Assembly: GCF_000214595.1 (NCBI RefSeq) | Contig: NZ_AFIG01000001.1 | Coordinates: forward strand, 434,001-498,000 | Origin: Methylophaga thalassica MP | GTDB lineage: Bacteria; Pseudomonadota; Gammaproteobacteria; Nitrosococcales; Methylophagaceae | Direction: 5' to 3' | Length of the DNA: 64,000 bases | Shown: positions 1,726 through 33,798 of the stretch, in pieces | Layout of the letters: each line of letters begins with the position of its first letter | How positions within the stretch are numbered: the stretch's first letter is position 1 | Notes under the pieces: generated by a model | Database searches by the model: none | What the model was told of the DNA's origin: nothing | The model's input: the letters and a program-made list of their open reading frames with translations, nothing else | Made by a program: the position numbers and the translations under genes

Positions 1726-3366
1726 TTATAAAATACAGATTTTTTGTTTCAGGCCTTCACTAAGGATGGAGTAATTCAGCGAGTAATCAACAGCCAGATC
1801 AATCAGGTGAACCCCTTTGGCATTGAGAGCGTAATCAAGGGTTTTGACGAACTCGGCATGACTGGTGGGTCTGTGACCAATCGCGCCATAGCTATCGGCA
1901 TATTTGACAAAATCGGGGTTATTAAAGTTAAGGCCATAATCTTCAAAGCCCATACCTTCTTGTTTCCACTTGATCATGCCATAGGCGTTGTCGTTGAATA
2001 TCAACACGACCAAATCAAGGCCTAGTCTGACAGCGGTTTCCATTTCTTGTGAATTCATCATAAAGCCGCCATCACCACAGACAGCCATGACTTTATGATC
2101 CGGATTCAGCATTTTCGCCATCATCGCGGTGGATAGTCCTGCTCCCATTGTGGCGAGGGCATTGTCCAGCAGCAGTGAGTTGTAGTAATAGCTAGGATAG
2201 TTTCGAGCAAACCAGATTTTGTATACCCCATTATCCAGAGCGAGGATATCTTCTTCACCCATGGCTTCACGAATAATGCGTACTGCACTCTGCGGCAGGA
2301 TAGGGAAGCGTTCATCATCGCTGTATTTGGACAGCCGTTCATTTACTTCTTGTTTTACTCTGTAGTAATACGAAAAGTCCCAATGTGGTTGAACTGTTAA
2401 ACCCGTACGCAGACGATTAATGGAGGTGGCGATATCACCGACTACATCGAGTTGGGGGAAGTAGACAGGATCAATTTCAGCGGCATGGAAATTAATATGA
2501 ATGACTTGAGCGCCGCCATCTTTCATGAAGAAAGGCGGTTTTTCTACTTCATCGTGACCCACATTAATAATCAGATCCGCTCGTTCAATAGCACAGTGTA
2601 AGAAGTCCGATTCTGACAACGCAGCGGTACCCAGATAGCTATCATGCCGCTCATCAATCACGCCTTTGCCCAGTTGCGTGTTGAAAAAGGGAATACCGGT
2701 ATGTTCGACAAATTTTGTTAAAGCAGCACTGGCTCGTTTACGGTTGGCTCCGGCACCGATTAGTAGTAGAGGCATTGACGCCTCTTCAATCATTTTCAAA
2801 GCATGTTGAATCGTGCGGTTATCGGCGTCCGGACGGCGGATAGTTTCAACCGTGTATATACGCTGATGAGCTTCTTCCGCAGCAATGTCCTCCGGAAGTT
2901 CAATATGAACTGCGCCGGGTCGTTCTTCGACGGCGATACGGAAAGCCTCACGAACAGTGGCGGCGATAGTGCTGCCATGCACGACTTGTTTGGTGAACTT
3001 AGTGATCGGGCGCAGCATATTGACTACATCCACAATCTGAAACAAGGCTTGTTTGCTTTCTTTGATGGGTTTTTGCCCGGTAATGATCAACATCGGCATA
3101 CCACCTAGTTGTGCATAAGCGGCAGGGGTGACCAGATTGGTTGCGCCAGGCCCAAGTGTCGATAAACATACACCAGGTTTACCCGTTAGCCGCCCGTAGT
3201 TGGCAGCCATGAATCCTGCGCCTTGTTCGTGGCGAGTAATAATCAGCCTGATAGAGGAATGCTTTAATGAATCAAGAAAATCCAGATTTTCTTCGCCGGG
3301 AATGCCGAAGATATATTCGACCCCTTCGTTTTCCAGTGCTTTGACGAGTAGGTCTGATGTTTTCAT
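1726..3366 (-). CDS. Acetolactate-synthase-like TPP-dependent enzyme
   Basis: A 546-residue thiamine-diphosphate enzyme with the three-part layout of the acetolactate synthase large subunit. The N-terminal pyrimidine-binding domain carries the catalytic Glu in TRHEQGAGFMA, a middle domain follows, and the C-terminal PP-binding domain has GDGGFMMNSQE and the NDNAYGM stretch. No small regulatory subunit (IlvH/IlvN type) lies beside it, which is more typical of a catabolic enzyme (AlsS-like) than of the biosynthetic holoenzyme. An AAGGAC ribosome site precedes the ATG at 3366. A possible -10 (TATAAT, minus strand, 3420-3425) lies upstream. It is cotranscribed with the aldehyde dehydrogenase. Other TPP decarboxylases of the same fold are possible, so the reaction is inferred. 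Confidence 0.82.
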   Translation of the reverse strand: MKTSDLLVKALENEGVEYIFGIPGEENLDFLDSLKHSSIRLIITRHEQGAGFMAANYGRLTGKPGVCLSTLGPGATNLVTPAAYAQLGGMPMLIITGQKPIKESKQALFQIVDVVNMLRPITKFTKQVVHGSTIAATVREAFRIAVEERPGAVHIELPEDIAAEEAHQRIYTVETIRRPDADNRTIQHALKMIEEASMPLLLIGAGANRKRASAALTKFVEHTGIPFFNTQLGKGVIDERHDSYLGTAALSESDFLHCAIERADLIINVGHDEVEKPPFFMKDGGAQVIHINFHAAEIDPVYFPQLDVVGDIATSINRLRTGLTVQPHWDFSYYYRVKQEVNERLSKYSDDERFPILPQSAVRIIREAMGEEDILALDNGVYKIWFARNYPSYYYNSLLLDNALATMGAGLSTAMMAKMLNPDHKVMAVCGDGGFMMNSQEMETAVRLGLDLVVLIFNDNAYGMIKWKQEGMGFEDYGLNFNNPDFVKYADSYGAIGHRPTSHAEFVKTLDYALNAKGVHLIDLAVDYSLNYSILSEGLKQKICIL

Positions 3367-3446
3367 GATGCGTCCTTATCCGTTGGTTTCAGGGGGCCGA
3401 TCTGTTTTCTGTTAACTTGATTATATAGTGATAATTCAGCTTACCG

Positions 3447-4217
3447 CTATGGGTTAATAATGCCAATTTCAACCCGACGGTTCATCGCACGCCCTTGTGA
3501 GGTCAGGTTTGACCGAATAGGTCTGGTATCGGCATACGCTTCAACTCTGAATTGTTCGGGTTGTAAGCCTTTATTACCCAATAATGCATGCACTACTGAT
3601 GTTGCCCTCGCTGCGGATAACTCCCAGTTCGACCGATAATTTAAATTGCTCAGTGGGACGTTATCTGTATGTCCTGCGACTACAAAAGTAGTATTGAGTT
3701 CCGTCAGTACATCAGAGATATGAGCAATAACCGGCAATATCCCGGATTTTAAAGTTGCTTGTCCTGAGGGAAAAGAAGCATTTTCATTAATGCGAATAAT
3801 GACCCGGTCATCAATAGTTTCCAGACTCAGCTGCCCTGCTGTAATCGCTTTGATGAATTTTTTCTGTAGCGTTGCCATTAGGCTATTCAATTTTGCTCTC
3901 TGATACAAATTGGCATCATGAATTTTGATGACACGTTCGTCGTTCAGGCTTTCTTGGAAGATCTTAGAGAGCGGTGATGGTGTATCTGTAGGAGATGGGG
4001 AGAAGGTCTGTTTAATGATGCTGGTGGCTTTGACGATCTCTTCGGGCGTATCTTTTTTTACGCCAAAAGCATTCTCCATCGAGCGAACCACGACTTTGTA
4101 TTTAAGTGCGTCAATTTCAGCCATACTGAGCAGCAATACAAAAAAGCAAAGTAACAAAGTCATAAGATCAGCGAAAGTGGCTAAATAGCGAGGGATTCCA
4201 CTGCTTTGTTTCTTCAT
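3447..4217 (-). CDS. PomB/MotB-like flagellar stator protein, no partner gene beside it
   Basis: An inner-membrane stator subunit: a single N-terminal helix with FADLMTLLLCFFVLLLS, whose Asp is the ion-binding residue of MotB/PomB, then a periplasmic linker and a C-terminal OmpA-type peptidoglycan-binding domain (VVAGHTDNVPLSN, NWELSAARA, GRAMNRRVEI). The segment after the helix (EIDALKYK, then AFGV) is closest to sodium-type PomB from memory of that family, which fits a marine bacterium. A PomA/MotA gene normally precedes it, but here the upstream neighbour is a divergent regulator gene. The start is uncertain. The ATG at 4217 gives 256 residues; an in-frame TTG at 4247, with a weak GAG upstream, would add ten. 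It ends about 80 bases before the acetolactate-synthase-like gene on the same strand. Confidence 0.85.
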   Translation of the reverse strand: MKKQSSGIPRYLATFADLMTLLLCFFVLLLSMAEIDALKYKVVVRSMENAFGVKKDTPEEIVKATSIIKQTFSPSPTDTPSPLSKIFQESLNDERVIKIHDANLYQRAKLNSLMATLQKKFIKAITAGQLSLETIDDRVIIRINENASFPSGQATLKSGILPVIAHISDVLTELNTTFVVAGHTDNVPLSNLNYRSNWELSAARATSVVHALLGNKGLQPEQFRVEAYADTRPIRSNLTSQGRAMNRRVEIGIINP

Positions 4218-32875: not shown

Positions 32876-32967
32876 AGCTTTTCCTTCGTTTTTTCTGACA
32901 CGTTTTGTTTCAACCACATGCTGATATTTCTCACTCTACCATTAGGGAGAGTGAAGTAGTGAAGTAG

Positions 32968-32995
32968 GTTGGGTAGAGCCCTAGCGAAACCCAAC
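32968..32995. repeat. Palindromic intergenic repeat, copy 3
   Basis: GTTGGGT and AACCCAAC with a longer loop (AGAGCCCTAGCGA). The flanks GTAG and GATGGG match those seen in typical members of this repeat type. Same family as copies at 30950, 32437 and 33688. Confidence 0.75.
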
Positions 32996-33080
32996 GATGG
33001 GATAGACATTATCGGATAAGCTTGTTTGAGCTATGCTTGTCTGGGGTCGTGCTTAAATTCAATCTAATGGATAATTATCT

Positions 33081-33634
33081 ACTTCACACGCTGCCGCTTG
33101 GGCGTTCATTTAATCGAATCACGTTCTTCAACTTAAGCTCTAGCTTTTTTGAAAATCTAGTTTCGCCTTAATGGCGAGTCAGGGAAATGTTTGCCCATTT
33201 CCCTAACAACCCTAGGGCACCCCGCAGTGCTGGCCTGCGGCTTCACTCGTCATAACATTGATTCAGGCGGTCGGCTAAAACTCGCTACGCTCACAAATTT
33301 GTCTGGAACAAATTTGGACGCCGATGGCGCCCAAAGGGTGAGTGGCATGGATGCCACGAATCAAACACTAGCCTCCCTCAGACCTGAATAAATGTCATTC
33401 CTCATCAGCACAAACGGGGGATTAGAAAAAGCCCCATTTTCCCGTCTATTGCCGCTAAAAATTGGCTTCATTTTATGGGTTAAGTGGGCACGTGTTTGAG
33501 CGTAGCGAGTTGGTGTCCACGCCATAAAATGAAGTTAATTTTTAGATGTAAGGCAATATCGGGTGCCCTTTTGTTTGGTTCGTTTATTTTGGGCAAACAA
33601 AATAAATGAACGCCCCAGCGGCAGCGTGTGAAGT
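33081..33634. mobile_element. 554-bp gene-free element with 32-bp terminal inverted repeats
   Basis: The ends 33081-33112 and 33603-33634 are inverted copies of each other over 32 bases with one mismatch (outer end ACTTCACACGCTGCCGCT). Inside there is no credible gene, but several further hairpins: AGGGAAATG/CATTTCCCT (33180-33208), AAATTTGT/ACAAATTT, TGGCAT/ATGCCA, CTTCATTTTATGG/CCATAAAATGAAG (about 33468-33535) and CGTTTATTTTG/CAAAATAAATG (about 33580-33609). This looks like a non-autonomous mobile or structured repeat. No transposase is present and no flanking target duplication is obvious to me. The remaining space up to 33798 holds a palindromic repeat and nothing else. Confidence 0.7.
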
Positions 33635-33687
33635 GAAAAATAGAATAGTGTTTGAGGCAATGCTCTAACTTAAGCTAGAAAACATTT

Positions 33688-33713
33688 GTTGGGTTTCACA
33701 GGTTCAACCCAAC
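33688..33713. repeat. Palindromic intergenic repeat, copy 4
   Basis: GTTGGGTT and AACCCAAC, 10 bases between, followed by CTAC. Same family as copies at 30950, 32437 and 32968, directly downstream of the 554-bp element and of the envelope operon that ends at 33799. Confidence 0.75.
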
Positions 33714-33798
33714 CTACATTTAAAATGAGCAAGCATATCCTAAGGCGAAACTGGCACTCTGCCCAAGCTACAAAGCGTTGATTGCTTTGATTCAATCA

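Follow-up and report, generated by a model that had tools for sequence, protein, structure and literature searches.

What kind of element stands at 33081-33634 of the window (the whole stretch of 64,000 nucleotides from Methylophaga thalassica MP that was analysed), where a 554-bp sequence with 32-bp inverted ends and internal hairpins encodes no protein? The first-pass annotation had offered two alternatives, a MITE moved by a transposase encoded elsewhere or a structured non-coding repeat. Its observation is sound and the limits that it gave to the element are wrong; the two alternatives merge, as both apply in combination, except that the 32-bp arms do not serve as the mobile ends. We regard the locus as probably a copy of a mobile repeat that is MITE-like and non-autonomous, with ends that act as a folded single strand.

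Extent and internal parts of the repeat

The structural features that raised the question are real. The two arms are complementary at 31 of 32 positions with one difference, and a rough count puts the expected chance pairs of this kind at about 1e-11 per 1.1 kb. Nine inverted-repeat pairs lie within or near the element, and the sole open reading frame of at least 60 amino acids inside it, a 66-aa frame at 33191-33391, leaves nothing gene-like. For the translated repeat frames (five and four), neither Pfam above its cut-off nor NCBIfam gave a match, apart from one Pfam match at E 0.15 that was judged to be chance, and a protein-coding reading of the repeat was dropped. The repeat may account for recurrent small "hypothetical proteins" that are read through such repeats. 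In Rfam, the window had no match at the gathering threshold and 13 further loci had only sub-threshold matches to eukaryotic miRNAs. Both strands of 33161-33627 fold far better than their dinucleotide shuffles, with z-scores of -6.9 and -7.2 as RNA and of -6.2 and -5.5 as DNA.

The arms had also been taken as the limits of the repeating unit, and this does not hold. Of 46 distinct left ends in the loci searched, just two carry the left arm, that of the window copy and that of its orthologue L058 (L062 is identical to L058 at the left end). This arm is a locus-specific, truncated inverted copy of the right end, placed 48 bp beyond the unit, which begins with TTTCGCC at 33161 and finishes with GCGGCAGCG at 33626 (Table 1). 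All 21 distinct copies from the fetched loci start with TTTCG and end with CGGCAG[CT]. The reading as a classical MITE with the 32-bp arms as its ends, moved by a DDE transposase encoded elsewhere, was rejected as quite unlikely: the arms exist and a half-element does occur within a TIR/TSD unit in Methylobacter (see below), but against this stand the two carriers in 46 left ends, flanks of the arms in which no duplication is evident, and the Methylobacter search for an autonomous parent.

Table 1. Parts of the repeat and its surroundings, in positions of the window
Feature	Position	Strand	Basis
Extra left arm, truncated inverted copy of the right end, this locus only	33081-33112	-	left-end comparison
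Repeat unit, two inverted half-elements head to head	33161-33626	.	boundaries from 21 distinct extracted copies
Left-half outer tail TTTCGCCTTAATGGCGA, small hairpin	33161-33177	-	stem covariation between copies
Left P7-like hairpin GGGAAATG/CATTTCCC, GCCC in loop	33178-33207	-	
Left stem A strand GGGCACC, complements loop of left hairpin	33215-33221	-	
Left closing helix, 33220-33233 / 33406-33419	33220-33419	-	
Variable arm B, inside left closing helix	33251-33277 / 33369-33397	-	
Nested module of about 70-72 bp in arm B tip	33294-33363	+	absent from orthologues L058/L062
Right closing helix, 33441-33453 / 33552-33563	33441-33563	+	
Arm C, tip 33497-33511, inside right closing helix	33455-33478 / 33522-33545	+	
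5' strand of stem A (TGCC), partner of GGCA at 33592-33595 in the P7 loop	33564-33567	+	covariation
L1, putative third strand TTTTGTTTGG, last G common to P7	33569-33578	+	parallel triplex code
P7 hairpin GTTCGTTTATTTTG / CAAAATAAATGAAC	33578-33611	+	
Right arm of the first-pass annotation: P7 3' strand, tail and 8 nt	33603-33634	+	
Right outer tail GCCCCAGCGGCAGCG	33612-33626	+	

The unit is a pair of half-elements, inverted and with their ends outward, and in the window the left and right halves have diverged from each other. A long-range pairing of GGGCACCC with GGGTGCCC was rejected as a closing helix, since this complementarity arises because the two halves are inverted copies. In the left half, the letters of the outer-tail stem covary between copies (CGCC/GGCG, CGAC/GTCG and CGTC/GACG), and in the variant L029 left stem A and the hairpin loop are changed on both sides. 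The orthologous locus L058 has the same flanks, and its outer parts and hairpin tips are near-identical to those of the window; the stems of both long arms differ in sequence with their pairing preserved. The nested module of arm B is missing from this copy and from L062, and L077 has a related module in its P7 loop.

Several side observations concern the arms and the surroundings. The three-hairpin module of 70-72 bp also recurs by itself throughout the family. It sits in the tips of arms and, in one case, in a P7 loop, as would a repeat with hairpin tips for its targets, and a 2-3-bp duplication possibly accompanies it. The arm tips 33279-33293 and 33497-33511 are mutually complementary (CTCGCTACGCTCA / TGAGCGTAGCGAG), and an alternative tip, CTCCCTTCGGTCA / TGACCGAAAGGAG, is also found; the tip motif GCGNAGC resembles a DNA mini-hairpin of very high stability. 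Palindromic repeats of the GTAG type (GTAGGTTGGGT..) flank the unit at 32964-32996 and 33687-33717, and likewise at L022 and L027. The former of these two loci, in the same genome, also holds a tandem array of copies (2634-3950) with mixed subtypes and partial units.

The proposed fold of the outward ends

Read on its outward strand, each half would form a closing helix that bears a long variable arm, and directly after it an H-type pseudoknot. The latter would comprise the 4-bp stem A, the U-rich L1 as a Hoogsteen third strand on the purine strand of P7, and P7 itself. In 19 sequences of the family, every cell of the P7 stem is paired, and the four nucleotides upstream of P7 covary with its loop. 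Taken together, P7 stem and pseudoknot include six pairs with double changes, and 99.1% of the cells are paired, versus 42-54% when slid. For stem A and the P7 loop, 18 of 35 distinct combinations pair at 4/4 positions and represent many different helices (permuted mean 3.5, maximum 10, in 5000 permutations); the other 17 stay below 4/4. These covariation counts, like those that follow, include related copies and are hence non-independent.

The stretch between stem A and P7 runs parallel to the P7 purine strand and follows a code, with U placed at A, C at G and G at U. This third-strand code is perfect in 48 of 54 distinct combinations of L1 and purine strand, counting only rows that were not picked by a pattern (permuted mean 24, maximum 32, in 5000 permutations); the six that miss it do so in some cases through the chosen register. 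An unbiased pattern, in which C could occupy either place, both within the third strand and within each strand of the stem, was run over 369 genomes and gave 34 matches in 18 of them. The parallel code is obeyed in 33 (11 with TTTTCTTT and AAAAGAAA, 22 with TTTCTTTT and AAAGAAAA) and swapped in none, the one deviating match having a third strand of T throughout; a reversed control pattern had no match in the same 369 genomes. A wider scan of contigs points the same way: among the 81 matches listed, from 80 loci, third-strand G goes with stem A-T in seven and C with C-G in 74, with no mixed combination. The left-hand hairpin of Methylophaga follows the code inconsistently, as judged by eye. Each outward end covaries in the manner of an H-type pseudoknot that includes a pyrimidine triple helix, and the third-strand code suggests that a physical triple helix forms at P7.

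A low-complexity or chance hairpin without any family has a practically negligible probability; T- and A-rich hairpins are easily found, but the family copies, the class-wide matches described below and the covariation of third strand and pseudoknot refute it.

As to the strand that folds, the outward strand of the P7 stem holds 102 G.U versus 9 A.C cells in 139 distinct rows, a count that includes pattern-found rows and related copies. This excess favours a folded single strand. In 236-nt stretches the outward strand is the more stable one in 105 of 122 cases; after dinucleotide shuffling its advantage is borderline (71 of 122, p=0.051), so that the lean towards RNA is only slight, and RNA is slightly favoured over ssDNA as the folded form.

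Copies, architecture and presence or absence between species

The absence of other copies in any genome had been named as the outcome that would speak against a repeat; the search instead returned many, in the own genome and in related ones. The own genome holds 21 aligned pieces, and DNA-level matches occur in 34 of 58 relatives (own included), all within one family, with none in 23 genomes outside it. The hairpin with GTTTATTTTG had been likened to repeats of other gammaproteobacteria, and both a covariance model and an exact pattern find it widespread in that class: the model, built on the right-end P7 hairpin, has matches in 87 of 369 gammaproteobacterial genomes and in 70 of 271 genera. 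Among the matches listed for the exact pattern are also Bacteroidota, Spirochaetes and other proteobacteria, with Flavobacteriia and Pseudodesulfovibrio as named isolates and Spirochaetes and Bacteroidales as MAGs.

Between species, the site can be occupied or empty. In the convergent polA-xerD gap (genes named by eye), the unit has one orientation in G000 and G022, a different subtype stands in the opposite orientation in G008 and G013, and in G010 the gap is about 72 bp long and the unit is absent. In Methylophaga the repeat is probably mobile. No target duplication is evident in the Methylophaga flanks of the extracted copies, and loci of the window type are often common to several species; therefore many copies are old and vertically inherited.

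Neighbouring P7 sites less than 3 kb apart face outward in 24 of 27 pairs, these being loci with at least two matches, exclusive of stem-only matches (model 17-50) and of L145 and L167. At these two Bacteroidota loci, motif matches on opposite strands abut or overlap and are possibly collapsed double units. Outward inverted pairs lie about 0.4-0.7 kb apart if empty and 0.9-2.1 kb apart around small genes. Motif copies number from 2 to 51 per genome, the maximum being reached in Chitiniphilus shinanonensis, where many form outward pairs about 0.5 kb across. A comparison of empty sites between two Chitiniphilus species was uninformative because contigs break at the repeats. At the Chitiniphilus locus L233, units stand between genes of a type VI secretion-like cluster (by eye), and tandem repeats of GTTGCA lie at the outer ends of several units; C. 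eburneus has a separate dispersed repeat of about 120 bp.

G124 and G376 each have just two sites in the whole genome, and these form one outward pair around an ORF, which in G376 encodes a HEPN_AbiU2 protein (E 9e-30), and another outward pair encloses an Ion_trans_2 protein. The 2.1-kb pair of L231 holds two small ORFs that look HigB/HigA-like by eye, the pair of about 0.9 kb at L232 holds a 91-aa ORF, and Pfam gave no match for three further cargo proteins. Terminal inverted repeats of 155-344 bp bound seven cargo pairs. Cargo-bearing outward pairs were also noted as such at L112, L094 and L231 (HEPN_AbiU2, ion channel and, by eye, HigB/HigA-like).

A different arrangement is seen in Methylobacter marinus, where a single half-element lies between 13-bp TIRs, CTGATGTTACGCA (L126, L153, L162, L170), with apparent TSDs of 7-8 bp, judged by eye, in three of four copies with both ends located. 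Further TIR pairs in this species are about 193 and 253 bp apart. The architecture is lineage-dependent, a single half in Methylobacter and double elsewhere, and the "one element" may thus be several that share a module.

Single copies follow a sense-oriented gene in 39 of 58 cases, and one of the few copies in Flavobacteriia lies in sense within a paa-like operon (genes named by eye). Such positions, together with the strand-specific P7 pairing seen in G.U versus A.C and with covariation across phyla, would suit a host-useful structured RNA, either a 3'-UTR element or an sRNA, for which transposition is incidental; the Coxiella QMITE1, a MITE, is described as transcribed into sRNAs in the available part of its report (PMC5896051). 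We nevertheless find this reading rather doubtful, as the wide range of copy numbers, the inverted double architecture and the want of a fixed neighbour gene speak against it, and the sense bias equally fits mere promoter avoidance.

A putative mobilising enzyme and comparison with known systems

For a MITE-like mobile repeat, which is the reading we prefer, the folded single strand would be a signal for propagation or maintenance of the element, and an enzyme would act in trans on the folded ends. Like a MITE, the repeat has no transposase, multiple dispersed copies and a size of 0.1-0.6 kb. The unit behaves as a MITE does, and no transposase could be assigned: none was found among the cargo ORFs examined between outward ends, and in Methylobacter the 40 exact TIR sites include no forward/reverse pair 0.5-3 kb apart and therefore no autonomous parent.

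HUH enzymes recognise ssDNA hairpins, which lends some appeal to a large element of the REPIN/TIRtron type mobilised by a HUH (Y1) transposase. Y1_Tnp is commoner in genomes with the motif (64 of 87 versus 161 of 282 without; one-sided Fisher p=0.0038), and the own genome has one such gene (C1:524237-524575). However, Y1_Tnp is missing from 23 of the 87, among them three Methylophagaceae, and of 20 Y1 loci from motif-bearing genomes only one has the motif nearby, on one side. With this weak co-occurrence and no linkage (19 of 20 loci without the motif nearby), RAYT/Y1 was rejected as the mover, and an element of this type is improbable.

The window unit had no matches in the plasmid or phage collections searched, nor the Methylobacter unit in the plasmids searched; L112 matched one record through a 42-nt fragment, and four patterns run against a viral collection hit one contig, for one pattern. 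We tentatively put forward, as possible though not probable, a new class of mobile gene cassettes that spans several phyla, hardly occurs in the viral and plasmid collections searched and has inverted outward pseudoknot ends, each secured by a telomerase-like triple helix. Small units would be empty and larger ones would carry accessory genes (AbiU2-type HEPN, ion channel), and an undiscovered recombination system would read the triple-helix RNA or ssDNA as its recognition code. A triplex pseudoknot kept by covariation across phyla would supply many natural variants of the fold, would render its role in transposition recognition, RNA stability or both directly testable, and would point to a mobilising enzyme.

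Full-text literature searches outside subscription papers found no description of such a repeat in the text accessible to them, and the available portions of PMC3733652, PMC5896051, PMC10969869 and PMC4853749 (the last of which treats MITEs) describe no bacterial repeat that has a pseudoknot or a triple helix. Triple-helix ends would be unusual in a bacterial repeat.

Bacterial MITEs such as QMITE1, which according to the part available is 300-400 bp long, has about 50 copies and lacks reported BLASTn orthologues (PMC5896051), resemble the repeat in being (nearly) non-coding, hundreds of bp long, highly structured and dispersed. Unlike QMITE1, compared here by its description, the repeat spans phyla and has pseudoknot-like ends. 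GTAG REPs and REPINs likewise form hairpins in inverted pairs mainly on the 3' sides of genes, and some RAYT-like genes are flanked by long TIRs as TIRtrons, as far as the accessible text goes (PMC3733652); in contrast to REPs of 20-40 nt, the half-elements measure about 150-250 nt and have no RAYT linkage, and the P7 sequence is not a GTAG-tagged palindrome of 20-40 nt.

The cargo units share with integron gene cassettes single accessory genes and structured, recombination-like ends. They differ in having inverted like ends on both sides, and the attC core GTTRRRY/RYYYAAC was not recognised by eye in P7. Few RNAs are known to form triple-helix pseudoknots; telomerase RNA and the SAM-II riboswitch are H-type pseudoknots with a major-groove triple helix. 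The repeat has in common with them the order of stem, loop 1 and stem 2 and a loop 1 that is rich in U and runs parallel to the A-rich strand of stem 2. In contrast to both, its putative fold has no known function and sits in dispersed repeats, and its third strand also reads G-C (by C) and U-A (by G).
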